From the NCBI GenBank assembly GCA_027488935.1, contig JAIYAP010000044.1:124001-188000 (forward strand): DNA of 64,000 nt, read 5' to 3'. The translations under genes and the position numbers were made by a program. The notes beneath the pieces are model-generated. The model made no database searches and was not told the DNA's origin. It was given only the letters and a program-made list of their open reading frames with translations. Positions 46,673-61,782 of the stretch are shown here, piece after piece; the stretch's first letter is position 1; every line of letters starts with the position of its first letter. This DNA comes from Saprospiraceae bacterium. Lineage in GTDB: Bacteria > Bacteroidota > Bacteroidia > Chitinophagales > Saprospiraceae.

Positions 46673-48592
46673 TTATGCCGGATCATTGGCGGGCATTCCC
46701 TTGTCTAAGGCGGAATACACGGAATTTTGACTGGCAAATTCTGGTACCAGGGTTTTCATTTGCTGCACAATTTCTGCACCCTGGCTGCCCGCATTGGCAC
46801 TATGAACCAACAGGTCTATATCCGGTTTTACCTGCAAATAACTATACACCCGCACCATCGCCTTTTTAATTTTAGGATGGTGGGTAGGTATGGTGTTTTC
46901 ATTATCGTCCAGCAGTTCTTCGGTCAGTTTTTCACCCGGACGTAAGCCGGTAATTCTGATTTCTATGTCTTTTTCAGGCACCAAACCGGCCATTTGTATC
47001 ATTTTACGGGCTAAATCCAGGATGCGAACCGGTTCCCCCATGTCAAAAACAAAGATTTCACCGCCCTTTCCCATCGCGCCGGCCTCTAACACCAATTGGC
47101 AGGCCTCGGGGATGGTCATAAAGTACCGGCTCACATCTGGATGGGTAAGTGTAATAGGTTCCCGGTTCTCTATTTGTGCGCGGAAAATTGGAATGACGGA
47201 TCCATTGGACCCCAACACATTGCCAAAGCGGGTGGTGATAAACTGGGTATAATTATTGGCGTGAAAGTTGAGCGATTGCGCATATATTTCCGCAATACGC
47301 TTCGATGCACCCATCACATTGCTTGGATTCACTACTTTATCGGTAGAGATCATCACAAACTTCTCTACATTGTACTGCACCGCCAAATCGGCCATATTTT
47401 GGGTTCCTTCCACATTTACCTTGATGGCCTCCTCCGGAAAGATTTCCATGATGGGCACATGTTTGTAAGCAGCGGCATGAAACACATAGACGGGCCGGTA
47501 TTCCTTAAAAATACGCTGGATTTTGTCCCGATCGCGCACATCGCCGATGATTGGAAGAAACAGCCCTTGCTCCACCTGCTCCTTCAAATGCAAGGTGATT
47601 TCGGCCAAGGGCGTTTCGGCCTGATCGAGTCCGATCACTTTACTGGGTTGATAACGAAGCAATTGCCGAACAATTTCGCTTCCGATTGAACCCGCACAGC
47701 CGGTCACCAGCACCACCCGACCTTTGATCGAATTTTTTACACTTTCCTGGTCTAATTGGATCGGCGGGCGGTTCAATAAGTCTTCAAAATTGATGTTTTT
47801 CAACTGCCCCACATTCAGGGTTCCGTTCAGCCACAATTCGGTCGGTGGAATTTTCAACACCTTAATATTATGTGCCAAGCAGGTATTGATGAATGCGATT
47901 TTGCGTTCGGGCGCCAAATCCCCGATGCCAATAATCACATTTTGAATGTTTTGTTTGCGCACCACCTCATCAAACGACCTTTCCGGATTGAACACCCGAA
48001 TGCCATTGAGCAATTTGCGGTGTACCCGTGGGTTGTCATCAAAAAAAGCCATGATCCGGTAAGGATGCGAACTGTTGTGGCGCAGCACCCGTTGGATCAT
48101 AGCGCCCAGTTCACCTGCACCAAAAATAGCCGTAGGAATGCCGTCGTTGTTCCTTTTGAAATGGTCGTAAGCCAACCGCAACAAAATGCGCAGACCGCCC
48201 ACGGCGCAAAGACACAGGATATAGTCGATCAGAATGACCGGCAGCAGCTTGGCCGGAATAATCCCGGAGGGCAAAAAGCCATGGATCAGGTAAAAGATCA
48301 CAGAGGCACTGGTTACTGCCAAAAAGACCGTTTTATAGTCTTTTTCACCAATATACCGGATGATGATGGAGTAGGTTCCAAACCCGATAAAGGACAAAAT
48401 GCGCAAACCGAGCAAGGCTGCGATGGTCCAGGAATAGAACAGGTGCGCACTGGTGATGTGCAGCTCATAACTGAGCAGGATGGCAGCAAAGATGGAAAAA
48501 ACACTGGCCAAAACGTCCAATCCAAAGATCAGAAGTTTGGTTGCATAGCCTGCCCACTGCATGCTTTTCATTGAATCGTACACGGAAGCCAT
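46673..48592 (-). CDS. Membrane nucleotide-sugar 4,6-dehydratase (PglF/WbpM/CapD type)
   Basis: 639 residues. Residues ~15-120 include four transmembrane helices (LLIFGLDVLASVFSIFAAIL; TVFLAVTSASVIFYLIHGFL). Then an N-terminal Rossmann domain (TAIFGAGELGAMIQRVLRHN near 150) and, from ~290, the dehydratase domain with GRVVLVTGCAGSIGSEIVRQ, FHAAAYKHVPIME, STDKVVNPSNVMGASKRIAE, TRFGNVLGSNGSVIP and PDVSRYFMTIPEACQLV, and a final TGLRPGEKL. Closest function in the family: removing water from UDP-GlcNAc to give the 4-keto-6-deoxy sugar used for bacillosamine or QuiNAc. Next to a DegT aminotransferase on the same strand, which fits the PglF-PglE pair. It precedes a 117-base gap to the NUDIX gene. 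Confidence 0.92.
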   Translation of the reverse strand: MASVYDSMKSMQWAGYATKLLIFGLDVLASVFSIFAAILLSYELHITSAHLFYSWTIAALLGLRILSFIGFGTYSIIIRYIGEKDYKTVFLAVTSASVIFYLIHGFLPSGIIPAKLLPVILIDYILCLCAVGGLRILLRLAYDHFKRNNDGIPTAIFGAGELGAMIQRVLRHNSSHPYRIMAFFDDNPRVHRKLLNGIRVFNPERSFDEVVRKQNIQNVIIGIGDLAPERKIAFINTCLAHNIKVLKIPPTELWLNGTLNVGQLKNINFEDLLNRPPIQLDQESVKNSIKGRVVLVTGCAGSIGSEIVRQLLRYQPSKVIGLDQAETPLAEITLHLKEQVEQGLFLPIIGDVRDRDKIQRIFKEYRPVYVFHAAAYKHVPIMEIFPEEAIKVNVEGTQNMADLAVQYNVEKFVMISTDKVVNPSNVMGASKRIAEIYAQSLNFHANNYTQFITTRFGNVLGSNGSVIPIFRAQIENREPITLTHPDVSRYFMTIPEACQLVLEAGAMGKGGEIFVFDMGEPVRILDLARKMIQMAGLVPEKDIEIRITGLRPGEKLTEELLDDNENTIPTHHPKIKKAMVRVYSYLQVKPDIDLLVHSANAGSQGAEIVQQMKTLVPEFASQNSVYSALDKGMPANDPA

Positions 48593-48672: not shown

Positions 48673-49809
48673 TTAGGTTGGTAAAATTTGCGTTAATACT
48701 TCAAAGATGCGGGAAAAGTCGGCGTCCACGAGGTTGGAGCCGCTGGGCAGACAAAGCCCTTGATCAAAGAGGCGGGATGATGTGCCATCGCCGTAAAACG
48801 GGCAATCGGCAAAAACAGGCTGCAAATGCATCGGTTTCCACAAAGGCCGACTTTCAATATTGTGTTCTTCCAATTTCAGGCGGATTGTTTCCCGGGTTAA
48901 GCCGCCCGTTAAGGCTGAATCCACCAAAATGGTCGTAAGCCAGCGGTTGCTGAAAAATCCGTTCGGTTCCGGGACAAATTGAATGCCGGGATTATTGCCT
49001 AACACACTTAGATAGCGTTCATAATTGCTGCGCCGTTGAGCAACGCGTTCGGGCAGTACCACCATTTGACCCCGACCAATGCCAGCCAGCACATTGCTCA
49101 TGCGGTAGTTGTAGCCAATATGGGAATGTTGATAATGGGGTGCCTGGTCCCTTGCCTGCGTAGAAAGAAAACGCGCTTGTTGAATTGTTGTCGCGTCCTT
49201 GCCAATCAAGGCTCCACCGCTGCTGGTGGTAATGATTTTATTGCCATTAAAACTCAAAACGCCCAAATCGCCCAGTGTACCACAAGGAATGCCGTGGTAG
49301 GTAGATCCAAGTGCTTCTGCTGCATCCTCCAAGACTGGAATTTCGTACTTGCGTGCAAGGTGCAGGATCTCGTTCATTTTGGCAGGCATCCCGTATAAAT
49401 GGACCGGGATAATCGCCTTGGGCTTTTTCCCTTTTGCAATACTATCTTTAATGGCCGCTTCCAGTGCAATCGGGTCCATGTTCCAGGTATCCGGCTCGGA
49501 GTCAATAAACACTGGCGTAGCGCCCTGGTACACTATTGGATTGGCAGAGGCCGAAAAGGTCATACTTTGGCACAAAACCAGGTCGCCTGCTTTCACATCC
49601 AGCAAAATTAACCCGAGGTGTAATGCTGCTGTGCCCGAACTCAAAGCCGCAGCGTGTTTGGCTCCTGTGAATGCGCATAAATCGGCTTCAAAACCATCCA
49701 CATGCGGACCTAAAGGGGCAATCCAGTTGGTGTCGAAAGCAGATTGTACGAATACTTGCTCCTGGGTACCCATATGGGGGGAGGAAAGCCAAATTTTAGG
49801 TAGAGACAT
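48673..49809 (-). CDS. DegT/DnrJ/EryC1/StrS aminotransferase (PglE-like)
   Basis: PLP-dependent sugar aminotransferase, 378 residues. Seen: KHAALSSGTAALHLGLILL, VLCQSMTFSASANPIVYQGA, FIDSEPDTWNMDP, IPVLEDAAEALGSTYHGIPC with the PLP-aspartate region, and the LSFNGNKIITTSSGGALIG block with the PLP-lysine. Then SHIGYNYRMSNVLAGIGRGQ, and FADCPFYGDGTSSRLFDQGL near the end. It would aminate the 4-keto sugar made by the neighbouring dehydratase. It starts 20 bases after the stop of the inserted ATPase gene. A truncated, diverged copy of its own 5' end occurs 1.3 kb upstream (51110-51176), on the far side of the ATPase gene. Confidence 0.92.
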   Translation of the reverse strand: MSLPKIWLSSPHMGTQEQVFVQSAFDTNWIAPLGPHVDGFEADLCAFTGAKHAAALSSGTAALHLGLILLDVKAGDLVLCQSMTFSASANPIVYQGATPVFIDSEPDTWNMDPIALEAAIKDSIAKGKKPKAIIPVHLYGMPAKMNEILHLARKYEIPVLEDAAEALGSTYHGIPCGTLGDLGVLSFNGNKIITTSSGGALIGKDATTIQQARFLSTQARDQAPHYQHSHIGYNYRMSNVLAGIGRGQMVVLPERVAQRRSNYERYLSVLGNNPGIQFVPEPNGFFSNRWLTTILVDSALTGGLTRETIRLKLEEHNIESRPLWKPMHLQPVFADCPFYGDGTSSRLFDQGLCLPSGSNLVDADFSRIFEVLTQILPT

Positions 49810-51229: not shown

Positions 51230-52105
51230 TTATTTGGTAGAAAATTTGTTTAAGTCATTTGCTAACATTGTACTAAAAACATCTGCTCCTTTTGCATTTA
51301 AATGGACTTTGTCAGCAAAATATTCAATTTGGCCCTTAAACCTATTTCCATAATCTAATATTACAAAGTCCTTATCCTTAAGCTTGGGCTGGGTAACATT
51401 GGTGCCGTAAAACAACGGTGTATTTAACAAAAATAACTTTATCTTTTGACTTTTACATAAGTCAACAATTTTCTCAAGATAAAAAACTTGGATATCAGAA
51501 ATATTGCTTGCAGCAATGGGTCCGTTATTTGTTGTGTCAGACGCAATTATACTTAATTGATTAAGGTTTGGTTCAAACCCTCCTAAGTAAGGTAGTTTTT
51601 TAATTAATAATTGCCTCTCTAATGAATAAATAGATTGGTAAAATACCTCCGGGATTAATTTTATTGCTATGAATTTAGAAAACTTCGCTTTTGTTATAAA
51701 TTCTGAAACATCATTAAATCTCATAAACGGGTAGTAACCTCTGGACTTGGATAAAAAGTTTTCATTGTCTAATACCCAAATTGTATCAATGGTGGTCGTC
51801 AAATTATGCGGACCGTAAGAAAGAATTACATTTTCAATCTTAATTTCTTTATCTATTAGCGCTTTTAGCTTACAATAGCAATAAAAATAGGCTTCAGCAG
51901 AATTTGATAAATTTATTGAATTGGGAAGGTGTTTTTCGGCGTCAAATCCATTTTGGACATGTGAATCACCCAAAATCAGGTAATCTATTTTTTGATGGAT
52001 GGTAAATTTATGTTCCGTTTGGTAGTAATAAAAATACGAAAACATCACAAAGATAACACCTGTGAGTGATAGGAAATAAGATAGCCTGCGAATAAAGTAT
52101 TTCAT
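51230..52105 (-). CDS. Membrane-anchored SGNH/GDSL-like protein, partner of MBOAT
   Basis: From ATG 52105 (291 residues), overlapping the MBOAT stop by one base (TGATG). An in-frame start 27 codons earlier would overlap MBOAT too far. Residues ~5-28 form a membrane anchor (FIRRLSYFLSLTGVIFVMFS). Then IDYLILGDSHVQNGFDAEKH with the block I serine in GDSH, NVILSYGPHNLTTT, and a C-terminal YFADKVHLNAKGADVF with the D-x-x-H pair typical of SGNH enzymes. Such proteins act with MBOAT O-acyltransferases (compare DltB/DltD and AlgI/AlgJ/AlgX) in moving an acyl group onto an extracellular glycan. The exact acyl group is unknown. Confidence 0.8.
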   Translation of the reverse strand: MKYFIRRLSYFLSLTGVIFVMFSYFYYYQTEHKFTIHQKIDYLILGDSHVQNGFDAEKHLPNSINLSNSAEAYFYCYCKLKALIDKEIKIENVILSYGPHNLTTTIDTIWVLDNENFLSKSRGYYPFMRFNDVSEFITKAKFSKFIAIKLIPEVFYQSIYSLERQLLIKKLPYLGGFEPNLNQLSIIASDTTNNGPIAASNISDIQVFYLEKIVDLCKSQKIKLFLLNTPLFYGTNVTQPKLKDKDFVILDYGNRFKGQIEYFADKVHLNAKGADVFSTMLANDLNKFSTK

Positions 52106-53565
52106 CAAAACGCAAAATATATGAACTCCACTGGAGCCCCTTTGAAATATACAATCATAATAGTAAGCGATATATAAATGGCCCACCTAATTGTAGACGA
52201 AGTGATTTTATCTAGAAATTGAGTACTTATATCAGAAGTTCTTGAGTGCCATTCTGCAATAAAAAGAAATAAACCAGCCAATATTAGATGTAAAAGTTTA
52301 AGTTTGTCTTGATTTGGGGTGTTGATATTAGGAAAAGCAAAGAAATCAAAACTAAAGATCTTACCTAACATATTAAAAGATATGTCAAGACTCGGTGCTC
52401 TAAAAAATATCCAACATAATTGAACAAACAGGAATGTTGTTATCATTCCACGGAGTTCTCTTATACTAGGGAAAATTGAGTTTTCGGAAATTGCGTTTTT
52501 TGTATTTATTTTATTTTTAGATAACAGGAAGAGGGGCATGAAGCCAAGTGCATGTGCCGTACCCCATGCAATAAAATTCCAACTTGCACCATGCCAAAAT
52601 CCGCTAACCAGGAAAATAATAAAGGTGTTTCTAACAGTGATCAATTTCCCTTGCTTTGAGCCGCCCAAAGGAATGTACAAGTAATCCCTAAACCATGAAG
52701 ATAATGAAATATGCCACCGTTTCCAAAATTCTGCGATATCTCTTGAGAAGTATGGGAACTTGAAGTTTTTTAACAAATCGAATCCAAAAAGATTTGCTGA
52801 CCCTATTGCAATATCAGAATACCCTGAAAAATCACAATAAATTTGAATTGCAAAAAAGAAGGATCCTAAGAAAACCGCACTTCCGTTATAATTCGTATAA
52901 TTGTTAAAAATTTCATTTGCAAAATATGCGCTGTTGTCAGCAACTACGACCTTTTTAAATATGCCCCATAATATTAATCTTAAACCAATAGATGCCCTTG
53001 CTAAATCAAATTGCCTGATTTTTTGTATCTGAGGCAATAAATGATTGGCGCGTTCAATTGGGCCAGCAACTAAAAGTGGAAAGAAGCAAACAAAAACAGC
53101 ATAGTCGATGAAATTTTTTACTGGCTGCTGAACTCCCCTATAAATATCGAATACATAAGATAGACCATGAAAAGTGTAAAAAGAAATCCCAACAGGCAGT
53201 GCAATGTTTAGCAGAAAGGGGTCAATATGGACACCTAAAAAGCTAAATGCTGTTTGGAATTGGGCAATAAAAAAATTATAATACTTGAATATGGCTAAGA
53301 TTCCTAGATTATTGATTATACTTAACCACAGAAATTGTTTGGAACGTTTTCTATTTTTAGATGCTACCCCAAAACCATAAGCGAAATCCAGTATTGTGCT
53401 TAAAAGCAGTAGGCATAGAAATTTCCAACTCCACCACCCGTAAAAAAAATAACTGGCAACCAGCAACATCAGGTTTTGATATCGAAGGTTTTTCTCGAAT
53501 ATTGTCCAGTACAAAATAAATACAACTGGCAAGAAAAATAAATATTCAAGGGAGTTGAAAAGCAT
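52105..53565 (-). CDS. MBOAT-family O-acyltransferase
   Basis: 486 residues, about ten or more membrane helices, starting LFNSLEYLFFLPVVFILYW. Typical blocks: NLMLLVASYFFYGWWSWKFL, ALPVGISFYTFHGLSYVFD, IYRGVQ, FPLLVAGPIERANHLLPQI, QIYCDFSGYSDIAIGSANLF, FWKRWHISLSSWFRDYLYIP and the catalytic histidine in VSGFWHGASWNFIAWGTAHA. Belongs to the DltB/AlgI branch, which transfers acyl groups across the inner membrane to surface glycans or peptidoglycan. Its gene is directly coupled to the SGNH-like gene. Together with the acyl-assembly module upstream it may add an unusual acyl chain, but acetate from acetyl-CoA is equally possible. Confidence 0.92.
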   Translation of the reverse strand: MLFNSLEYLFFLPVVFILYWTIFEKNLRYQNLMLLVASYFFYGWWSWKFLCLLLLSTILDFAYGFGVASKNRKRSKQFLWLSIINNLGILAIFKYYNFFIAQFQTAFSFLGVHIDPFLLNIALPVGISFYTFHGLSYVFDIYRGVQQPVKNFIDYAVFVCFFPLLVAGPIERANHLLPQIQKIRQFDLARASIGLRLILWGIFKKVVVADNSAYFANEIFNNYTNYNGSAVFLGSFFFAIQIYCDFSGYSDIAIGSANLFGFDLLKNFKFPYFSRDIAEFWKRWHISLSSWFRDYLYIPLGGSKQGKLITVRNTFIIFLVSGFWHGASWNFIAWGTAHALGFMPLFLLSKNKINTKNAISENSIFPSIRELRGMITTFLFVQLCWIFFRAPSLDISFNMLGKIFSFDFFAFPNINTPNQDKLKLLHLILAGLFLFIAEWHSRTSDISTQFLDKITSSTIRWAIYISLTIMIVYFKGAPVEFIYFAF

Positions 53566-53619: not shown

Positions 53620-54357
53620 TTACTGTGTGTTCTCGTATAAACCAATAAGTTGCTTTCCCAGAACTTCCTTGCCCCATATTTGCCATAAGTCCAGATTTTT
53701 CAAACTCGGCAACAAACTTCGCCATTGAAATGCTATCGATTTCGGGGCTAAATAATCTGTAGGGGCGGCAATGATCTGTTTTACGCCATTCGCTTCAAAC
53801 CAGGCAACAGCTCTGGGCATGTGAATCGCGGAGGTACAAACAATCAGCGGGGTATCTGTACCAAAAGCCGATACATAAGCCGCTGCTTCCGTTTGGGTAT
53901 TGGTTACAGCCTCTTGAACGAAAATGCGTTCTTGCCCAATCCCTAAACCTATGGCCGTTTCTTTCATCAAGTGGGCTTGGGATTTATCACCTTTGCCTTT
54001 AGGGCCCGAAGTAATTAGCTGGGCTTTTGGCAGCTTTAAACAAATACTGACTCCTTCAATTAGCCGCACCAAAGCCACGGGGGCTAAACGCTGCGCACCA
54101 AGTAGTCGTGTATCGTCGTTTTTACCTGCGCCTAATACCAGGATATGCACAGGTTTGCCCGCAGCGTGTAAAGCCGCAAGCGCAATGTTGGGCGCATATT
54201 TGCTTTCCAATTGTCTTATCAAAAACCTGATGGGCTGTGAAATACTCAAAATGTAGGCTAATATAACCCCAATGACCCATTGTGTACGGGTCCCTTTTGA
54301 AAACAAATAAATAGCAGCGGCTAAAAAATATAAGAGTGGATGTAATAATATAAGCAT
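53620..54357 (-). CDS. YdcF/DUF218 family membrane protein
   Basis: 245 residues. One or two N-terminal membrane helices (LLHPLLYFLAAAIYLF; WVIGVILAYILSISQPIRFL) and then the DUF218 domain: VHILVLGAGKNDDTRLLGAQ, LAPVALVRLIEGVSICLKLP, LITSGPKGKGDKSQAHLMKE, AIGLGIGQERIFVQEAVTNTQTEA, and TPLIVCTSAIHMPRAVAWFEA. The family includes ElyC/SanA and is linked to envelope and lipid-carrier metabolism, but the reaction is not settled. It lies between the acyl module (32 bases from the MBL gene) and the MBOAT gene (54 bases), on the same strand and probably one transcript. Confidence 0.88.
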   Translation of the reverse strand: MLILLHPLLYFLAAAIYLFSKGTRTQWVIGVILAYILSISQPIRFLIRQLESKYAPNIALAALHAAGKPVHILVLGAGKNDDTRLLGAQRLAPVALVRLIEGVSICLKLPKAQLITSGPKGKGDKSQAHLMKETAIGLGIGQERIFVQEAVTNTQTEAAAYVSAFGTDTPLIVCTSAIHMPRAVAWFEANGVKQIIAAPTDYLAPKSIAFQWRSLLPSLKNLDLWQIWGKEVLGKQLIGLYENTQ

Positions 54358-54389: not shown

Positions 54390-55022
54390 TTAAGCCTCTA
54401 AAGACTGTTTAAGCGCGTCAATTTCTCTCATGGTTAATTGCACGATTTCACCATGCCCTGGACAAATAATGGTTTCTTTATCAATTTCTTGAAAAAGGAT
54501 CGCAAGACTTGCAATATTTTCGGCTTTATTCCCACCCTTAAGCTTTGTTACTACTGGAATTCCTGGAATAAATGAGTCGCCCGTAAAAAGAAAATTGCCT
54601 AATTTGAAACTCAAACATCCAGGATTATGCCCTGGAGTCGCAATCACTTTTACTTTTAGACTACCATTTAGGGGCACCAATTCATGATCCTTAAGTATTA
54701 TTACATTCTCTCCCGCGTAGACAACAGGTTGTTCGTGGTAAAACGAAAGATTCAGTTTATCTGAATACAAAGCATCGCGGGTATGTTCAGCGCAATAAAA
54801 CATGCAATTGGGAAATGATTCCGCAAGTACATTAATGCCCTGAATGTGATCATAATGAGCATGTGTTAAAAACACGCCTTTGATTAATTGATCTTTTTGA
54901 AGATATCGTAATGCCGGACCAGCATTTCCAATATCCACCAACCATACGTCATTGCTACCTGAGCATGAGATACCATACATGTTGGAGGTATATATCTCCG
55001 TTGGAATTTGTTCAACGATCAC
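54390..55022 (-). CDS. MBL-fold metallo-hydrolase of the acyl module
   Basis: 210 residues with the beta-lactamase-fold metal site: FLTHAHYDHIQGINVL (HxHxDH), TPGHNPGCLSFKLGNFLFTG (H and the GD region DSFIPGIPVV), and a final ICPGHGEIV. An enzyme of the glyoxalase II/thioesterase-like group. Its ATG overlaps the stop of a free acyl carrier protein gene (ATGA), which strongly suggests that it acts on an acyl-ACP, for instance by thioester hydrolysis or editing. Typical glyoxalase substrates are not excluded. Part of the acyl-assembly module. Confidence 0.88.
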   Translation of the reverse strand: MIVEQIPTEIYTSNMYGISCSGSNDVWLVDIGNAGPALRYLQKDQLIKGVFLTHAHYDHIQGINVLAESFPNCMFYCAEHTRDALYSDKLNLSFYHEQPVVYAGENVIILKDHELVPLNGSLKVKVIATPGHNPGCLSFKLGNFLFTGDSFIPGIPVVTKLKGGNKAENIASLAILFQEIDKETIICPGHGEIVQLTMREIDALKQSLEA

Positions 55023-55237
55023 CCCAAAAAGGCCAAAATATCTCCAATGGTGCTAAATGCCCGGATTTGCTCGCCTGTGAGCTTTTTGCCAAATTCTTCA
55101 TCCGAAAGGACAATCAGGGATAGTTTACCCATTGAATCATACTCTGGAACATCATCAAGCGCCGTTTCAGGTGTTAGCGTACCTTCTTCAATTTCCAGCG
55201 TATCTTCGATCCGTTTAATTTTTTCTTCGTTTGTCAT
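55019..55237 (-). CDS. Free-standing acyl carrier protein, copy 1
   Basis: 72 residues, acidic, helical. The phosphopantetheine serine is S35 in the block EYDSMGKLSLIVLSDEEFGK (DSM at the start of helix II, in place of the more common DSL). The rest looks like a small ACP (EDTLEIEEGTLTPETALDDV). It would carry an acyl chain on a pantetheine arm. Coupled with the MBL hydrolase (ATGA overlap), and it follows an SDR gene by 24 bases. Distinct in sequence from the second ACP at 56771. Confidence 0.85.
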   Translation of the reverse strand: MTNEEKIKRIEDTLEIEEGTLTPETALDDVPEYDSMGKLSLIVLSDEEFGKKLTGEQIRAFSTIGDILAFLG

Positions 55238-55261
55238 GGTATTTTGATTTGTTGATTATGC

Positions 55262-56008
55262 CTATGTTGTCAAATAGCCCCCGTCGGCCGGGATGGCACT
55301 TCCTGTGATAAATGCTGATTTTTCACTGAGTAAAAATAGTATGATGTCAGTAACTTGGGATGGTTTGCCGAGGCCAAGATATTGCCTTTCCAAGACTTTA
55401 TCTGTTTGATCGTCTTTACTTTCCATCAATGTCTGATATGCTTCGGTTTCAATCTGTCCACAAACCACGGTGTTCACCCTGATTTCTTTTTTATAAAGTT
55501 CTTTGGCCAAACATCTTGTTGCAGCCTCCATTGCCGCTTTTGAAGCGGCGTAGGCAGTAATACCAGATCCGCCAGCATGTGCTGAAATAGAAGATATGCC
55601 CACAATACTCAATCCTGGATTGTATGTATTTTTTCGCGTAACAAGCCGAATCATTTCAACATAGGATGCAAAGTTCGCTGTCATTACTTGCATTACATCA
55701 TGGGTTTTAAGCATGTTTATTGGCCTTCTCGACCGGATTCCCACACAATGCACATATCCATCAATTTTCAAAGACCCTGATATCTGCTTTTTCCAAAGAT
55801 CTTCCAAATTTTCAGGAGATGAAAAATCGGCTTGAAAAAAGGTATGTTGCCCCAAACTGAATCGCGACTGTATCCTGGCCATGCTATCCGTTGAGTTTGT
55901 ATGCAAAATAAGTGAAGCTCCTAACTCATGCAAGGCTTCAGCCAGATGAAAACCGATTCCTTTTCCCGCACCAGTAATCAGAAAGGTTTTGTTTGTTAAA
56001 ATATCCAC
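55262..56008 (-). CDS. Short-chain dehydrogenase/reductase, copy 1 of the acyl module
   Basis: 248 residues of the classical SDR family. Seen: KTFLITGAGKGIGFHLAEAL (NAD(P)-binding TGxxxGxG), VHCVGIRSRRPINM, SIVGISSISAHAGGSGIT, and AYAASKAAMEAATRCLAKEL with the catalytic YxxxK, then RVNTVVCGQIETEAY and ITGSAIPADGGY. It resembles FabG-type 3-oxoacyl-ACP reductases. It lies between the two ACP genes on the same strand, which fits reduction of a beta-keto-acyl-ACP. Substrate inferred from context. Confidence 0.9.
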   Translation of the reverse strand: MDILTNKTFLITGAGKGIGFHLAEALHELGASLILHTNSTDSMARIQSRFSLGQHTFFQADFSSPENLEDLWKKQISGSLKIDGYVHCVGIRSRRPINMLKTHDVMQVMTANFASYVEMIRLVTRKNTYNPGLSIVGISSISAHAGGSGITAYAASKAAMEAATRCLAKELYKKEIRVNTVVCGQIETEAYQTLMESKDDQTDKVLERQYLGLGKPSQVTDIILFLLSEKSAFITGSAIPADGGYLTT

Positions 56009-56022
56009 GGTATTATTAAAGG

Positions 56023-56757
56023 TTAAAGCGTATAGCCGCCATCCAACACAAGATTGGTGCCAGTTATAGACCGAGATTCTGGGCTCAACAAGTAAACCAC
56101 CATATGGGCCAACTCTTCAGATTCAATTACGCCTAAGGGCTGCTTAGCCAAATCATCTGCCTCGCTTAAAGCCATATTGTCTTGAATAAAACTGTGCTTC
56201 ATATCGGCCCGTACCCACCCCTTTTGAATGGAGTTTACTCTGATTTTCCGATCCGCCAACTCTGCTGCCAAGCCCCTAATTGAAGCATCCAGGGCTGCCT
56301 TTGAAGCCGAATAGGCAATTTTTGACTTGAGGCCCTTTGTGCTGCTTACGGAGGAAAGAGCTACTACGCTTCCGCCATCCTTAAACCGTTTCTTTTTACA
56401 TATACAACGAGCAAACTCTACAAATGCGTAAAGATTTGCATTCATCATTTGATGTAGAAAAACAGTATTGGTTAAACTTAAAGGGCGAACACCTCCGATC
56501 CCGGCTGCATAAACCAAGCCAGAAACAGGAAAGATTTCTGGTGGAAGTTTTTTTATTTCCGGTTCGATAAGTTCGGTATTATAAAAATCAAAAATAAAGA
56601 ATTCAACCGTCCCAATTCCATTAAAAGCAACATCTGATTTAGGTAGTTGTCTTTCAATTAAAACCACATGATAATTCTGGTTAATCAACTGATTAACAAT
56701 AGAAAATCCAGTGTCGTTGCCATCGTTTATTACTATAACACATTCCCTGTCTTGCAT
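56023..56757 (-). CDS. Short-chain dehydrogenase/reductase, copy 2 of the acyl module, degenerate cofactor motif
   Basis: 244 residues. The catalytic part is intact: VVALSSVSSTKGLKSKIAYS with SASKAALDASIRGLAAELAD (YxxxK), RVNSIQKGWVRADM and ITGTNLVLDGGYTL. The start, however, reads CVIVINDGNDTGFSIVNQLI, where the usual TGxxxGxG turn has become NDGNDTGF, so the NAD(P) fit may differ. Like its neighbour it looks FabG-related. It follows the second ACP gene by 13 bases. Possible roles: second ketone reduction at another position of the chain, or a regulatory or inactive pseudo-reductase. Confidence 0.85.
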   Translation of the reverse strand: MQDRECVIVINDGNDTGFSIVNQLINQNYHVVLIERQLPKSDVAFNGIGTVEFFIFDFYNTELIEPEIKKLPPEIFPVSGLVYAAGIGGVRPLSLTNTVFLHQMMNANLYAFVEFARCICKKKRFKDGGSVVALSSVSSTKGLKSKIAYSASKAALDASIRGLAAELADRKIRVNSIQKGWVRADMKHSFIQDNMALSEADDLAKQPLGVIESEELAHMVVYLLSPESRSITGTNLVLDGGYTL

Positions 56758-56770
56758 AATTAGTAGATTG

Positions 56771-57001
56771 TCAACTGCTTTGCAATCGTTTTATTAATTC
56801 AACTAATGCGGCAGCTGAGTTGAAGTTCTCTGGTTTCAGTTCCGTAACCCGAATAGCAATGTTGAATTCATCGTTCAGTTCGGAAATGAGACTTACAAGG
56901 TCAAAAGAATCCAACAAACCTTCATCCATTAGTTTATGTTCCTGCATAAAATCAATATCAGGTCTGATTCCCGACATGATTTCTATAACTTTGTCATACA
57001 T
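56771..57001 (-). CDS. Free-standing acyl carrier protein, copy 2
   Basis: 76 residues with the phosphopantetheine serine S32 in LMDEGLLDSFDLVSLISELN (DSFD), the usual LDSxD layout of peptidyl or acyl carriers such as D-alanine carrier proteins. The remainder is typical (IMSGIRPDIDFMQEHK; AIRVTELKPENFNSAAALVE). It overlaps the formyltransferase-fold gene by 8 bases, and the adenylating-ligase gene overlaps that in turn, so ligase, formyltransferase and ACP are a tightly coupled unit. Likely receives the activated acid from the ligase. Confidence 0.9.
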   Translation of the reverse strand: MYDKVIEIMSGIRPDIDFMQEHKLMDEGLLDSFDLVSLISELNDEFNIAIRVTELKPENFNSAAALVELIKRLQSS

Positions 57002-57857
57002 GCTTTAATTGTTGTAGTTTTAAAAGTTTAATCAGCAAATTATTGCGTTTTATCCATATCTCTGCCTGATCTTCCTTATGTATAAAGAAATCTTCATTTG
57101 ATACGGTGCTTTCGATTTGGTATTTATTAATTTCAAACTCTTGGCCTTTATAATAGATTTTTGGAATTCCTAAAGTTTGTAAAGGCCCATAATCCATCGC
57201 CCTAAGAAATGCACTTATCTTTTTGCCCGTCCAGTTAATATCCAACTGCCCGCCATTAGGTATTAGTTTAGCAAATCTGAAGGTATAGCCGGTGGTAAGT
57301 TCTTGCGGATGAAATACAGCATCTCCGCATAATAAGAAATCAGATACCTGAACAAATGTCTGATAAGCCTCTGTCATATATGTTCTTAATAACGAAAATG
57401 AAGTAGTTATAGGCGTAATTGGTACTTTTTTTTGAATCAGGATGTCACCTTTATCAACCTTTGCAACCACTTTATGCCAAGTCACTCCTCCATAATCTGA
57501 TTCTTCAAATATAGCCCAACATTCAGTATTGCGGCCTGGATATTCCGGAAGATATGAAGCATGAAAATTAACAATCAGCAATTCTGGATTGGAAATGATA
57601 TTTTCAGGGAAAATATATCTATTAGAAGCGCTTAATACCAATGTGGGTTTGGTTACGCTTTTTAAAAAAAAAGTCAAATCCTCTTTATCAAACGTTTCAT
57701 AATGAATCGAATTGGCTTCGCAATAGGATGCTGAAGATATGGCGGCAGTTGATTTATATTCGATAAACGTTAGGTTCAGTGCCTTGGTTTTTAGGAACTT
57801 CGCTAATGTATTTGCTATAGTACCACCACCAATTATATATACATCTTTAAAATGCAT
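56994..57857 (-). CDS. Formyltransferase-fold protein of the acyl module
   Basis: 287 residues related to methionyl-tRNA and sugar formyltransferases. The catalytic N-x-H is in LLIVNFHASYLPEYPGRNTE near residue 97, and the conserved aspartate in GGVTWHKVVAKVDKGDILIQ near 130. The N-terminus (DVYIIGGGTIANTLAKFLKT) is Rossmann-like. A C-terminal OB-like part (INWTGKKISAFLRAMDYGPL) is present but atypical. Usual role: transfer of a formyl group from N10-formyl-tetrahydrofolate to an amine. Between ligase and ACP, it could formylate an aminoacyl-ACP as in formylation domains of peptide synthetases, or an amino sugar as in WbkC/QdtF-type enzymes; both remain open. Overlaps both neighbours (11 and 8 bases). 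Confidence 0.82.
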   Translation of the reverse strand: MHFKDVYIIGGGTIANTLAKFLKTKALNLTFIEYKSTAAISSASYCEANSIHYETFDKEDLTFFLKSVTKPTLVLSASNRYIFPENIISNPELLIVNFHASYLPEYPGRNTECWAIFEESDYGGVTWHKVVAKVDKGDILIQKKVPITPITTSFSLLRTYMTEAYQTFVQVSDFLLCGDAVFHPQELTTGYTFRFAKLIPNGGQLDINWTGKKISAFLRAMDYGPLQTLGIPKIYYKGQEFEINKYQIESTVSNEDFFIHKEDQAEIWIKRNNLLIKLLKLQQLKHV

Positions 57858-59379
57858 ATTCCTTGTTTTCGTATTGCTTTTTAAGAAGAGGTCTGTCTAC
57901 TTTACCATTCAGGTTATACGGCATAACTTCTAATTGAATCATAATATTAGGATACATAAATTTGGAAACTCTGTCCTTTAACTCTTTAAGAATGTATTTA
58001 TTATCCGCATCTTTCCCCTGGTATACTAAAACGATTTTCTGCTTGTCATGGTCATAAAAGCAAATGGAGGTCTCAATTTTATCCATGGAATTCACCAGAA
58101 TTTCAATTTCTCCCAATTCCACCCGCTGACCCATGTGTTTTACTTGATTGTCCTTGCGGGACAAAAACATGATTTGCCCAAATTCATTATATTTTGCCAG
58201 GTCTCCTGTCCGATATAGCGTATCTGGAAAGTGGGAATGCGTTGGGTTTTGGCAAAAAGCCTCTCCTGTTTTTTCTGAATTGTTGTAGTATCCCAAGGCA
58301 AGGCAACAGCCCCGCACACATAATTCCCCAGTTTCTTCTCCTTTTACAACTTCATTGTTTTCAGTAAGTAAAAGGATTTCCGTGTTCTTGAATGGAATTC
58401 CAATTGGAAGCACCTCCTCATCGGAAAATGCTTTTTCAATTATGTAATAGGTGCAAACCGAGGTAATTTCTGTTGGACCGTACAAGTTTACAAATCGAGT
58501 ATTGGGTAGAGTGCGCCTCCAGTAATTCAATACTTTGTTATGCATCACTTCACCAGAAAACATTACTTGTTTTAGGGTGTCAGGCTTTTTATCTGCAAAA
58601 GCATCAGCATTTGCCAATAATGCTATGGCAGATGCTGACCACATGATTGTATCAATGCTTTTATCAAGTATAAATTCCACCAATTGGCCCATCATCATAA
58701 AATAGCTTTTGGGGATTACATACATCGTGGCACCACAACTCAAAGAACTGTAGATATCCTTAATGGATGCATCAAAGTAAAAAGGATTTTGGTTCCCCAA
58801 AACATTATTTTCTTCGAATCCAAATGTGTTAACCAGGTTATCGGTCATATCAATGACCGACTGGTGGCAAGTTATTACGCCTTTAGGAATGCCTGTAGAA
58901 CCAGATGTAAAAGTTGCGTAAAGAGGGTCACGGTCAATAATGCTCCTTCGGATCTTAAGCAACTCCAATTCTTCATACCCATACTGAATAACCTCTTCAT
59001 AGACCAAAGTCAACAGACCAGGTGCTACGGATTCCGCAAATGCTTTGTCTTGCCGTAAAACGAGCGTTGCCAACGGATCAAGTGTCTGAAGGATCAGTTC
59101 GATACGCAACTTGGGCATCTGAATATCAATCGGGACATAAAAGTTGCCACTGTATGCTACCCCCAAAAAGCAGACCAAGCTCTCGATATTGCGATCGACA
59201 AATACAACGATGGGTTTGCGTCGAGCGCCATCGGTTTGTTTGAATAGCGCGTATCCAATATTTTTTGCAAGATCTGACAGATCCTGATAGGAAATATGCC
59301 TTTTATCGTCTGCAAATGCAACTTTGTTCGGTACACGTGAGACCGAATTTTCCAGGTATTCTAAAACATTGTACTGCAT
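57847..59379 (-). CDS. AMP-forming acyl/amino-acid adenylating ligase
   Basis: 510 residues of the ANL superfamily. Core blocks: YATFTSGSTGIPKGVITCHQ (P-loop A3), NLYGPTEITSVCTYYI (A5), YRTGDLAKYNEFGQIMFLSR and KDNQVKHMGQRVELGEIEIL (A7-A8), and NLNGKVDRPLLKKQY with the A10 lysine. The set of motifs, and NGKVDRPLL at the end, resemble amino-acid adenylation domains and DltA (D-alanine-carrier ligase). It activates an acid as acyl-AMP and loads it on a carrier, here most likely the ACP two genes downstream. The substrate pocket residues were not decoded. It overlaps the formyltransferase-fold gene by 11 bases. Confidence 0.9.
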   Translation of the reverse strand: MQYNVLEYLENSVSRVPNKVAFADDKRHISYQDLSDLAKNIGYALFKQTDGARRKPIVVFVDRNIESLVCFLGVAYSGNFYVPIDIQMPKLRIELILQTLDPLATLVLRQDKAFAESVAPGLLTLVYEEVIQYGYEELELLKIRRSIIDRDPLYATFTSGSTGIPKGVITCHQSVIDMTDNLVNTFGFEENNVLGNQNPFYFDASIKDIYSSLSCGATMYVIPKSYFMMMGQLVEFILDKSIDTIMWSASAIALLANADAFADKKPDTLKQVMFSGEVMHNKVLNYWRRTLPNTRFVNLYGPTEITSVCTYYIIEKAFSDEEVLPIGIPFKNTEILLLTENNEVVKGEETGELCVRGCCLALGYYNNSEKTGEAFCQNPTHSHFPDTLYRTGDLAKYNEFGQIMFLSRKDNQVKHMGQRVELGEIEILVNSMDKIETSICFYDHDKQKIVLVYQGKDADNKYILKELKDRVSKFMYPNIMIQLEVMPYNLNGKVDRPLLKKQYENKEYAF

Positions 59380-59384
59380 TGATA

Positions 59385-60479
59385 TTATAATTCGCTTGCT
59401 GAACGGATAATCCCTTCTTCAAAAATGCTGTCGTCTTCGATTATGGGAAGGATATCTTTCGTGTTTATTTTTACCGAAAATACCCCCCAAGATAGTCCAA
59501 CCCCAAACCCATTAAACATCACATTGATGTCCTCTACTGGAGCATTCCCGTACCGGTCACATAATGTAAGTGCTGAAGATGCCCCGGAGGTATTTCCAAA
59601 CTTACTCAGCGTAAGTGGCATTTTCTCAACCGGGATTTTTAATTTTTTTGCTATTTGTTGCAAAATCAGCCCATTGGCCTGGTGAAAAGCAAAACAATCG
59701 TAATCATCCACACTTGTTTGTGTCAATGTCCAGTAGTCTTTGATTAACTTCGGAACATCCGTTATTGTGAAGGTAAATACAGAGGTGCCCTGCATGACAG
59801 AATGATGTAGGGTGCGCTCTATTCCATCATGGTAAATTTCAGGCTCATGGCTTGCATTCAAATTTCGATAACCACCCGCAGGGACCATCAAATAGCGATA
59901 CCCGTTTCCATCTGAGCGGAGCAGGCCTGTAACAGGTTCGATTTCTTCAGTTTTTTCCAACAAAATTGCCACACTTGTCTCGCCAACCAGCATGATTGAG
60001 GCCTTATCCTTTGGGTAAGTAGTTTTTCCGGCAGTATCTCCTACAATCAGAATGGCCTTTTTAATATCGGAATTTTGCATCATGGATGCAGCAACTTGAA
60101 AGCCGTAAACAAGGGATGAGCAACCTAAGTTGATGTCAAAAACAGCACAATCAACGGGAAGATCTAATCTTTTGTGTACGATAAAAGAAGAACCTGGTCT
60201 TCTATAATCTCCGCTGGTAGTGCCAAATATCAATAGTCCGATATCGTTTTTATCGATACCTTTTTCCGACAGTAGTCTTTGAGCGGCAGTATACCCCATA
60301 TCAGAGGCCGTCTGAAATTCGGTTGTCCTTCGGGTCTCCGAAATTCCGGTCATCTGCATAAACTTATCGACATCCTCGGACCCAAATAGTCCCTTATAGG
60401 ATTCGGTTTTAATAACTTGCTTAGGAATCACACTTGATATCCCCGCTATTCGAATGTTGCTGAATCTAAATACTGGCAT
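59385..60479 (-). CDS. 3-oxoacyl-ACP synthase III-like condensing enzyme
   Basis: 364 residues of the KAS III (FabH) type. Catalytic triad: C120 in VFDINLGCSSLVYGFQVAAS, H266 in DDYDCFAFHQANGLILQQIA, N296 in LSKFGNTSGASSALTLCDRY. N-terminal IAGISSVIPKQVIKTESY and the SEDVDKFMQMTGISETRRTT block are as in FabH. It condenses an acyl-CoA or acyl-ACP primer with malonyl-ACP. As it lies five bases from the adenylating ligase in a glycan locus away from other fatty-acid genes, it probably builds a specialised short acyl chain. A second possibility, a non-extending FabH-like acyltransferase, cannot be excluded. Confidence 0.9.
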   Translation of the reverse strand: MPVFRFSNIRIAGISSVIPKQVIKTESYKGLFGSEDVDKFMQMTGISETRRTTEFQTASDMGYTAAQRLLSEKGIDKNDIGLLIFGTTSGDYRRPGSSFIVHKRLDLPVDCAVFDINLGCSSLVYGFQVAASMMQNSDIKKAILIVGDTAGKTTYPKDKASIMLVGETSVAILLEKTEEIEPVTGLLRSDGNGYRYLMVPAGGYRNLNASHEPEIYHDGIERTLHHSVMQGTSVFTFTITDVPKLIKDYWTLTQTSVDDYDCFAFHQANGLILQQIAKKLKIPVEKMPLTLSKFGNTSGASSALTLCDRYGNAPVEDINVMFNGFGVGLSWGVFSVKINTKDILPIIEDDSIFEEGIIRSASEL

Positions 60480-60489
60480 GGCGTTATTT

Positions 60490-61134
60490 TTAGATGTCTA
60501 TTTTTCGTGCCGGATTACCAAAGTACAGGTAGCCGTCCTTCGTATTACGTACAATGTAACTTCCGGCTCCAATTCGAGTATTATTGCCAATTTTTACATA
60601 TTGTAATACCACTGAACCAACTCCGAAAAGGTTAAGGTTTCCAATTTGAACACCACCAGAAATTCGGCTTAAGGGCATGAATATATTAAATGAATCTACC
60701 TGGACATCATGCGCTAATGCTGAGATGCTATTAAACTGGTTAAAATCTCCGATTTCCACATCGCAAGAAAATGAACAGGCTCGAACAATTACATTACCCT
60801 TTCCTATCTTAAAGGAAGGTGGATCCGCAAAGAAGACATCCGGATGTATTAAGTTTGGATATTGGATCAAAGGGTTTTGAATTTTGTCGACTATCAGTTT
60901 AGTGGTTTTGGGTTGGCCGATTGCAAAAACGATAGCAATAGGCACGTTCCAAGCATTTAGGTCGTTAATATTGCCAAGTACCTTTCCAAAATGAGAAATG
61001 GAAGTCCCTTGATCGATACCATCATCAAAAAAACCTAATAATTCCCAGATAGGTTTTTTTTCATTGATTTTATTAATGATACAGGCAACTTCTTTGCCAA
61101 AACCGCCCGCTCCATAGATGGCAATAGGTGTCAT
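60490..61134 (-). CDS. Sugar N-acetyltransferase, PglD/NeuD type
   Basis: 214 residues. The N-terminal Rossmann-like half (PIAIYGAGGFGKEVACIINK, WELLGFFDDGI) is followed by a left-handed beta-helix of hexapeptide repeats (IGKGNVIVRACSFSCDVEIG, QIGNLNLFGVGSVVLQYVKI, GNNTRIGAGSYIVRN). This is the NeuD/PglD layout, which acetylates a 4-amino sugar nucleotide. Together with PglF-like and PglE-like genes further along, it fits UDP-N,N'-diacetylbacillosamine or a related diamino sugar. The usual active histidine of PglD is not obvious: the position after the first repeats reads NSISALAHDVQVD, which contains a histidine that may serve. Acyl donor could be acetyl-CoA or another acyl. Confidence 0.88.
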   Translation of the reverse strand: MTPIAIYGAGGFGKEVACIINKINEKKPIWELLGFFDDGIDQGTSISHFGKVLGNINDLNAWNVPIAIVFAIGQPKTTKLIVDKIQNPLIQYPNLIHPDVFFADPPSFKIGKGNVIVRACSFSCDVEIGDFNQFNSISALAHDVQVDSFNIFMPLSRISGGVQIGNLNLFGVGSVVLQYVKIGNNTRIGAGSYIVRNTKDGYLYFGNPARKIDI

Positions 61135-61176: not shown

Positions 61177-61782
61177 CTAGTTTTCCCCCCTAAAGGGCTC
61201 AAAATTCGGAGCGCTAATATTTTTCCGGAGAAAAACCTTCAAAGTAGTTAGCCAAAGAATTTTAAGATCTAGCCCAAATGAAAGATTATCGACATACCAA
61301 ACATCTAATTCAAATTTTTCCCTCCATGATATGGCATTTCTACCATTGACTTGTGCCCAGCCAGTAATTCCTGGCTTTACTTCATGACGCCGAAACTGTT
61401 CTTTTGAATACAACGGAATGTATTTTTCCAATAATGGCCTAGGGCCAATTAGGGACATGTCCCCTTTAATTACATTGATGAGTTGAGGTATTTCATCAAG
61501 TGAAGTCAAGCGCACGAACTGTCCTACCGCTGTAATTCGCTTTTCATCAGGAAGTAATTTTCCATTTTCATCGCGTTCATCGGACATGGTTTTGAACTTT
61601 AAAATGGTAAAAATTTTGGCCTCCACACCAGTCCTTTTTTGAAGAAAAAATATACTCGCTCCTTTGTTGGCAATTCTTATTGCTGCCATAAGTAGCAAAA
61701 AAATAGGGAAAAGTATGATTAAACCAATCAAAGACAATGTAATATCAAGCATTCGTTTTCCTATATATCTGTAAAGTTTCAT
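61177..61782 (-). CDS. Initiating sugar-phosphate transferase (PglC-like), copy 2
   Basis: 201 residues, the short monotopic PglC type. RMLDITLSLIGLIILFPIFL with the re-entrant membrane helix, FFLQKRTGVEAKIFTILKFK, TSLDEIPQLINVIKGDMSLI, GPRPLLEKYIPLYSKEQFRR and KPGITGWAQVNGRNAISWRE are all family blocks, including the DE catalytic pair. It transfers a sugar-1-phosphate (for PglC, diNAcBac-1-P) to undecaprenyl phosphate on the cytoplasmic face. Followed in the operon by the PglD-like gene and preceded by the GT4 gene with a shared base. A second, longer enzyme of this type lies at 44454. Confidence 0.92.
   Translation of the reverse strand: MKLYRYIGKRMLDITLSLIGLIILFPIFLLLMAAIRIANKGASIFFLQKRTGVEAKIFTILKFKTMSDERDENGKLLPDEKRITAVGQFVRLTSLDEIPQLINVIKGDMSLIGPRPLLEKYIPLYSKEQFRRHEVKPGITGWAQVNGRNAISWREKFELDVWYVDNLSFGLDLKILWLTTLKVFLRKNISAPNFEPFRGEN

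Follow-up and report, generated by a model that had tools for sequence, protein, structure and literature searches.

In Flavobacterium psychrophilum, the R1 genes wfpC-G are proposed to make the 3,5-dihydroxyhexanoyl group on Qui2NAc4N by means of two ketoacyl-acyl carrier protein synthases (KASs), an acyl carrier protein (ACP), a reductase and a PglD homologue (PMC6519341, main text). In Pseudomonas syringae, the viosamine island genes vioS (a KAS III), vioR, acp and vioB are proposed to yield N-(3-hydroxy-1-oxobutyl)viosamine, and deletion of the reductase gene vioR removes the modified sugar (PMC3927599, main text and gene table). The group II flagella glycosylation islands of Aeromonas contain an ACP, a 3-oxoacyl-ACP reductase and an AMP-dependent synthetase, and of published systems they come closest to suggesting an activating enzyme next to genes of this kind (PMC7874193, main text). 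Here we describe a cassette of eight genes in a 64,000-nucleotide stretch of a Saprospiraceae bacterium (Bacteroidota; assembly GCA_027488935.1, contig JAIYAP010000044.1, positions 124,001 to 188,000; hereafter the window). On the minus strand at window positions 54390 to 60479, it encodes in order a KAS III, a free-standing adenylation protein (A), a formyltransferase (FT), a first ACP (ACP1), two short-chain dehydrogenases/reductases (SDR1 and SDR2), a second ACP (ACP2) and a metallo-beta-lactamase (MBL)-fold hydrolase. Most likely it supplies an amino sugar with an N-acyl group of an unusual kind.

Like the R-group modules that are built around an ACP, the cassette combines KAS III, ACP, ketoreductase and a PglD/VioB-type transferase within a glycan locus. 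It shares KAS, ACP, ketoreductase and PglD homologue with the F. psychrophilum R1 system, in which the acceptor is UDP-Qui2NAc4N, but R1 has two KASs and one reductase where the cassette has one KAS and two SDRs; no adenylation protein, formyltransferase, GNAT or second ACP appears in the consulted passages on R1, and the words 'formyl' and 'AMP' are absent from the main text (PMC6519341). The first-pass annotation of the window had likened the product to the dihydroxyhexanoyl group. Such a product now appears unlikely, since the cassette has one KAS together with A, FT and ACP1, against two KASs without amino-acid activation in R1 as published. With the P. syringae island the cassette shares KAS III, reductase, ACP and a PglD/VioB-type transferase, which in P. 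syringae serves a 4-amino sugar, but A, FT or GNAT, ACP1 and SDR1 are missing from the seven genes tabulated there (PMC3927599). The Aeromonas islands differ in having no KAS III or formyltransferase in the consulted passages, 'formyl' being absent from the main text, and amino-acid activation is not stated there for orf3 (PMC7874193). As seen in these sources, all three systems thus lack the amino-acid-plus-capping part of the cassette.

All eight genes that had been annotated are present at these positions, in this order and on this strand, in the list of open reading frames (ORFs) and in the domain scans (Table 1), and the tight packing claimed for them held as well. By the ORF coordinates there are three overlaps, between A and FT (11 b), FT and ACP1 (8 b) and ACP2 and MBL (4 b), and the gaps are 5 b (KAS-A), 13 b (ACP1-SDR1), 14 b (SDR1-SDR2) and, as the largest, 24 b (SDR2-ACP2). 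A PglD-like gene lies 10 b before KAS in the window, and because PglD directly precedes KAS in 14/14 loci, it belongs to the unit, which is therefore larger than the eight genes first reported.

Those loci came from a scan of genome contigs for the A protein by short patterns, which is not a census. It gave 29 loci, of which 12 were in Bacteroidota, 16 in Bacillota and one was a distant Roseomonas match; PglD, KAS and A stood in this order in all 12 Bacteroidota loci. One further cassette was found in whole genomes (G681), making 14 Bacteroidota loci with the window. As far as each contig extends, the gene order from PglD to MBL is identical in the 14. Ten loci, the window included, run through MBL, and nine of the 13 others are complete from PglD or a PglD fragment; the contig of L009 stops past ACP2, and those of L005, L010 and L013 stop inside A or shortly beyond it. 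The residues expected to matter are also conserved: the LAHD motif of PglD and the catalytic Cys, His and Asn of KAS in 14/14 cassettes, the DSFD serine of ACP1 and the DSM/DSL serine of ACP2 in 11/11, and HxHxDH of MBL in 10/10. The MBL-fold hydrolase is probably an editing thioesterase.

Recurrence in 13 further Bacteroidota loci shows that the cassette is conserved and not a chance arrangement. A search for the same gene set had been suggested when the combination was first thought to be new; the set is not confined to this genome, and no described system was found in the literature search. In open-licence literature, judged by titles and the openings of abstracts, we found no description of an adenylation/formyltransferase/ACP set in glycan loci or of statine-like N-acyl groups on sugars. 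The cassette is nonetheless rare. Matches to the A protein at E<=1e-100 occur in 1/396 genomes of the order and 2/395 of the phylum (overlapping samples that both count the window's own genome), and in 1/80 genomes of the G681 family, namely G681 itself. The hosts include Chitinophagaceae, Cyclobacteriaceae, Paludibacteraceae and Prolixibacteraceae, others being unclassified, and this patchy spread fits lateral transfer.

The variable part of the cassette is the slot between A and ACP1, here called slot X. Among the 12 loci in which it could be typed, FT occupies it in three (window, L004 and L007) and a GNAT in nine (L003, L005, L006, L008, L009, L011, L012, L024 and L033), leaving L010 and L013 untyped. 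Pfam was run on 3/3 FTs and 5/9 GNATs, the other four GNATs being typed by alignment or profile matches, and the GNAT of L005 is known from its first 73 residues, up to the contig end. The exchange can be seen between two closely similar loci, L004 (FT) and L005 (GNAT), whose DNA is 92.9% identical across 1513 b of A and 89.7% identical across 1741 b of PglD-KAS. On both the A tree and the KAS tree the state requires three changes, the starred branches alone forcing three, against an average of 2.8 with shuffled labels; it is thus not clustered, as expected of a freely exchanged slot. Both families move a small acyl group onto an amine. Because A and its specificity code are constant across the swap, the simplest common substrate would be the amino group of the amino acid bound to ACP1. 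The replacement of FT by GNAT in sister cassettes makes it most likely that FT caps this group, and the GNAT probably acetylates it. N-capping of the ACP1-bound amino acid, by formyl or acetyl, is accordingly a prediction that we regard as well supported.

The three cassette FTs form one clade (100/100), in which Asn97, His99 and Asp135 are invariant. Their nearest neighbour is the N-terminal FT of a nonribosomal peptide synthetase (NRPS)-like ORF of 2202 aa (L096:5238-11846; 81/77), and the PDB matches of FT include LgrA. A formyltransferase acting on the amino sugar rather than on the carrier deserves consideration, because the grouping with the NRPS-fused FT is weak and the best PDB match is a sugar enzyme, GDP-4-amino-4,6-dideoxymannose formyltransferase (5vyt, 63.6 bits). 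Furthermore, of the eight next-nearest FTs among the 395 phylum genomes, six stand beside genes that we read by eye as PseI/NeuB-like. We nevertheless consider this alternative distinctly improbable, since GNAT replaces FT in the A-X-ACP1 slot, PglD is already there for the sugar amine, and in the Bacillota, members of the GNAT family also stand beside A, ACP1 and MBOAT in loci that showed no PglD-, PglE- or PglC-like gene. Homologous GNATs lie between A and ACP1 in Bacillota L023, L025 and L027; as no KAS, SDR or PglD was found in these three loci, the GNAT travels with the A-ACP1 pair. A structure model of the L012 GNAT (predicted local distance difference test, pLDDT, 91.1) has among its best PDB fold matches tandem GNATs such as MshD (mycothiol synthase), at 10-16% identity. 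Elsewhere, at L100:4039-8235, genes for an ACP, an adenylation protein and a luciferase-like monooxygenase, as read from ORF starts, lie beside a divergent formyltransferase that was assigned by family search, and this is perhaps another free-standing A/ACP/FT set.

The adenylating ligase had been assigned the activation of some acid. Its identity as a ligase was confirmed by the AMP-binding domain, and the acid can be narrowed to a probable amino acid. The best NCBIfam model for A is that for amino-acid adenylation, TIGR01733, whose score (Table 1) falls just under the cut-off of 317.4 bits; DltA models reach 276-285 bits, also under their cut-offs (TIGR01734, 276.2 against 559.85). A reading of A as a fatty-acid ligase was rejected, the amino-acid adenylation models scoring highest. 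LgrA chains head the PDB list because the scores of their two A domains (151 and 166 bits) add up, and, taken singly, the A domains of tyrocidine synthase 1 (207 bits), GrsA (200) and a DltA (183) outscore either. The Asp that binds the alpha-amine, equivalent to GrsA 235, is D203 and is present in 14/14 A proteins; together with the TIGR01733 score, this residue makes an amino acid the probable substrate. Decoding of the specificity residues, proposed earlier as a check, gave DAKMMSLSVK in the window, L003, L004, L005 and L012 and Leu at the fourth code position in the other nine loci, with Ile at the ninth position in L013, whose sequence ends before the tenth. The code is near-identical in 14/14 and does not single out one amino acid. 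The placement of GrsA 235 and of the ten code positions on A is assumed rather than derived from a structure, and the codes that we presume for Glu, Ser and Cys, each matching at 4/10 positions, did not settle the matter. The Lys at position 239 of A, together with the Arg at position 87 of KAS, may be a sign that the side chain is acidic or polar.

To compare the remaining genes with ordinary acyl-assembly modules, we used the 31/395 phylum genomes with a KAS at E<=1e-45, and took one region each from 20 of the 29 left when G000 and G681 were excluded. Genes in these plain regions were labelled by the best-scoring cassette profile at E<=1e-6 (1e-3 for ACPs). An ACP of the ACP2 type was present in 20/20, an SDR in 18/20, PglD in 16/20, two KASs in 10/20 and MBL in 1/20, and A, FT, GNAT, ACP1 and SDR1 were found in 0/20. 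By this content, KAS, SDR2 and ACP2 are ordinary hydroxyacyl machinery, and A, X, ACP1 and SDR1 are an addition.

The shared enzymes have diverged within the cassette, where the KASs as well as the SDRs branch as separate lineages. Where E. coli FabH has Phe87, a residue lining the starter pocket, cassette KASs have Arg in 14/14, against a hydrophobic residue in 28/28 plain KASs (28 of the 30 in the 20 regions, the two of L079 being left out); at position 157, Phe occurs in 27/28 plain and 0/14 cassette KASs. In the SDR tree, SDR1 and SDR2 form sister clades (100/98) to which none of the 18 plain SDRs belongs. SDR2 keeps the NAD(P)-binding GxxxGxG motif in 11/11; SDR1 keeps Ser-Tyr-Lys in 11/11 and has GxxxGxG in 0/11. 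The duplication and the lost glycine motif argue for one reduction, so that two SDRs need not mean two ketones. The pair more likely joins a catalytic SDR2 to a degenerate subunit than performs two reductions in succession, and SDR1 is probably the partner subunit. The two-ketone, dihydroxyhexanoyl reading that had been drawn from the two SDRs is weakened for the same reason.

The existence of plain KAS modules without amino-acid genes raises an alternative in which no extension takes place: PglD or another enzyme would transfer the N-formyl-aminoacyl group directly, and KAS, SDR and ACP2 would separately make a 3-hydroxybutanoyl-type group for another position. The component groups are known from bacterial glycans, with N-acetylalanyl on Qui3N/Qui4N and 3-hydroxybutyryl groups listed in the consulted part of PMC3210612 and N-formyl-L-alanyl in Vibrio anguillarum O2 in that of PMC10059132. 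We think this unlikely, though it deserves serious attention. A single PglD precedes KAS in every cassette, and a second PglD-like gene past MBL occurs in L006, L007 and L024 only, besides an 18-bit match in L033, several loci being short there. Moreover, distinct KAS and SDR lineages with a changed KAS position 87 would be unexpected if the starter were unchanged.

Alternatively, 3-hydroxybutanoyl made by KAS, SDR2 and ACP2 might be amide-linked to the ACP1 amino acid, giving an N-(3-hydroxyacyl)-aminoacyl product. GNAT folds can use other acyl donors. A group of this kind, N-[(R)-3-hydroxybutyryl]-L-alanyl on Qui4N, is listed in the consulted part of PMC3210612. We hold the idea to be rather improbable: a formyltransferase in slot X would block the amino group, domain scans recognized no condensation-domain protein among the cassette proteins of the window, and the route could hold for the GNAT versions only, yet the other genes are shared between both versions.

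Downstream of the cassette and on the same strand, window 51230-53565 encodes an unclassified protein of 318 aa, with no Pfam match at E<=1 and no NCBIfam match at 1e-10, and a DltB-like MBOAT (52105-53565; 143.6 bits to DltB, cut-off 375). This MBOAT and the resemblance of A and ACP1 to DltA and DltC allow a Dlt-like route, in which A and ACP1 would feed the MBOAT and a polysaccharide would be esterified outside the cytoplasm; A, ACP1 and MBOAT do occur together in 16/16 Bacillota loci, where KAS, SDR and PglD gave no match. For the cassette we regard such a route as very improbable, as it leaves KAS, the SDRs and ACP2 unexplained and the available DNA of the 13 remaining loci showed no MBOAT, although just six (L006, L007, L008, L012, L024 and L033) reach at least 4 kb past MBL. 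The MBOAT was rejected as a part of the module on the same observation. In three of the Bacillota loci, A, GNAT and ACP1 lie in a row (L023:9995-14015, L025:1421-5583 and L027:9995-14043), with the MBOAT after them in L023 and L027 and before them in L025. In these Dlt-like systems, N-acetylation of the loaded amino acid probably precedes its transfer.

The cassette lies in a polysaccharide locus, as had been claimed: KAS III, ACP, ketoreductase and PglD-type transferase occur together, with PglC-, PglE- and PglF-like genes nearby. All four families of a QuiNAc4N-type pathway (dehydratase, 4-aminotransferase, NeuD-type and initiating transferase) are represented, the dehydratase, aminotransferase and PglD scoring under NCBIfam cut-offs. 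PglC is within 50 b of PglD in eight of the 12 loci with at least 800 b before PglD and 1.6-3.6 kb upstream in three (L008, L011 and L024); in L004, none was found within 810 b before PglD. Homologues of the aminotransferase (64-74% identical) are downstream of the cassette in L004, L006, L007, L008, L024 and L033. That the cassette makes some small molecule apart from the glycan could be imagined, since peptide and polyketide pathways also use A, FT, KAS and carrier proteins and the phylum has an NRPS-like protein with an N-terminal FT (L089/L096). This is the reading to which we give least credence, as PglD directly precedes KAS in 14/14 loci, a PglC- or PglE-like gene is nearby in 13/14 (the exception, L013, spans 3.1 kb), and no further NRPS or polyketide synthase enzyme was recognized in the window's cassette. 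The additional PglD-like gene that follows MBL in three loci (L006:7525-8139, L007:15514-16128 and L024:15410-16006) perhaps serves another acyl transfer.

Farther upstream on the contig (L034) are FnlA-like (545.8 bits, cut-off 730), WbcJ-reductase-like (238.8, cut-off 500) and WecB (241, cut-off 210.15) genes, and L035 holds a weakly WzxE-like protein (78.6, cut-off 325). FnlA, the WbcJ reductase and WecB are the usual gene set for L-FucNAc. L-FucNAc is part of the F. psychrophilum repeat (PMC6519341, main text), to which the FnlA- and WecB-like genes of L034 offer a likeness. An unclassified protein family has copies at window 62925-63998 and at L034:926-2089, 9451-10566 and 10750-11895, three copies lying in the glycan locus; it also occurs in 8/13 other cassette loci and 5/20 plain regions, and the two L034 copies that were scanned had no Pfam match above cut-off.

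The sequences themselves show which genes are present and in what order, how far they are conserved, their catalytic residues, the exchange of FT for GNAT, the duplicated SDR and the substitution in KAS, and from these we infer every chemical step of a pathway. A would adenylate one amino acid and load it on ACP1, and FT would formylate its amino group there, the GNAT probably acetylating it in sister cassettes; these two steps we consider probable. KAS III would then take the capped aminoacyl starter and add one malonyl unit carried on ACP2, and the SDR2/SDR1 pair would reduce the single 3-ketone to an N-formyl gamma-amino-beta-hydroxyacyl-ACP2, dead-end thioesters being cleared by MBL. PglD would then acylate the 4-amine of a sugar of the UDP-QuiNAc4N type supplied by the PglF- and PglE-like enzymes, and PglC would start the repeat unit with the acylated sugar. 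That the whole pathway operates, placing a carrier-bound, N-capped, amino-acid-derived acyl group on a surface-glycan sugar, we judge an even proposition.

Several observations weigh against it. The extension of an aminoacyl starter by KAS III is suggested by neighbourhood and one substitution; the pocket is not enriched for change, since only one of 13 pocket positions (an assumed list) is among the 13 fixed differences between cassette and plain KASs, and Arg87 is hence one suggestive change and not a statistical case. As noted above, the FTs group weakly with the NRPS-fused FT and match a sugar formyltransferase best, and the structure model of FT was poor (pLDDT 56.7) and was set aside. 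The identity of the sugar is a guess from gene families, because the dehydratase and aminotransferase fall under NCBIfam cut-offs, and the window MBOAT is another possible user of aminoacyl-ACP1.

Table 1. Genes of the cassette and its surroundings in the window, with the domain or family matches on which each name is based.
Feature	Position	Strand	Match
PglC-like initiating sugar-phosphate transferase	61177..61782	-	Bac_transf 213 bits
PglD/NeuD-family transferase	60490..61134	-	TIGR03570 153.6 bits, cut-off 160.8
KAS III	59385..60479	-	ACP_syn_III/ACP_syn_III_C
Free-standing amino-acid adenylation protein (A), NRPS/DltA type	57847..59379	-	AMP-binding; TIGR01733 309.9 bits
Formyltransferase (FT), variable slot X	56994..57857	-	Formyl_trans_N 59.2 bits
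ACP1, DltC-like carrier	56771..57001	-	PP-binding 28.1 bits; NF003464 (DltC) 44.8 bits, cut-off 68
SDR1, duplicate of SDR2	56023..56757	-	adh_short_C2
SDR2, 3-ketoacyl-ACP reductase-like	55262..56008	-	adh_short_C2 164 bits
ACP2	55019..55237	-	weak NCBIfam ACP matches, all under cut-off
MBL-fold hydrolase	54390..55022	-	Lactamase_B 66.4 bits
DUF218 protein	53620..54357	-	DUF218 68.8 bits
DegT-family (PglE/LegC-type) aminotransferase	48673..49809	-	DegT_DnrJ_EryC1 311.5 bits; TIGR04181 LegC 385.5 bits, cut-off 420
PglF-like nucleotide-sugar 4,6-dehydratase	46673..48592	-	Polysacc_synt_2 386.8 bits; PseB 191.3 bits, cut-off 407.75

ACP2 has no Pfam match at E<=0.001. The DUF218 protein occurs also in cassette locus L033 and in plain regions L066, L070, L074 and L075, and an AAA/DUF4143 ATPase gene (window 49830-50999) lies between the aminotransferase and the acyl genes. 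The G+C content of the cassette region is about 37-41%, lower than that of much of the window.

Glycan chemists know many unusual N-acyl groups carried by amino sugars (PMC3210612, consulted part), and genes for those derived from amino acids did not turn up in our literature search. If the proposed pathway is true, the cassette would be a genetic signature for such groups, carrier-bound amino acids would enter a fatty-acid-like extension within glycan synthesis, and the formyl/acetyl exchange would be a natural swap open to work with purified proteins. Exchange of the capping enzyme would then alter the cell coat by a single small group and leave the remaining pathway fixed. The cassette also draws attention to the Dlt-like loci of Bacillota, with their probable N-acetylation of the loaded amino acid.

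Of the known enzyme sets, DltA and DltC resemble A and ACP1, and Bacillota relatives of A and ACP1 adjoin an MBOAT; the cassette differs in that A and ACP1 score under the DltA and DltC cut-offs and no conserved MBOAT was seen in it. A possible parallel is a flagellin locus of Campylobacter that would combine KAS III and ACPs with an enzyme activating an amino acid. The initiation module of LgrA (F-A-T) likewise unites formyltransferase, amino-acid adenylation and carrier in one functional set, and LgrA formylates the carrier-bound amino acid. The cassette has the alpha-amine Asp and the Asn-His-Asp set of such a module, but its parts are separate ORFs instead of one polypeptide fused ahead of a condensation domain, and they are followed by KAS and SDRs in place of condensation domains. 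Tentatively, and with slightly less than even confidence, we suggest a free-standing system that combines the logic of peptide synthetases with that of fatty-acid synthesis and supplies surface sugars with statine-like acyl groups, N-capped and of the gamma-amino-beta-hydroxy type, the capping enzyme being exchangeable. The cassette is a member of the R-group modules and would work like an NRPS formylating start module joined to type II fatty-acid extension.

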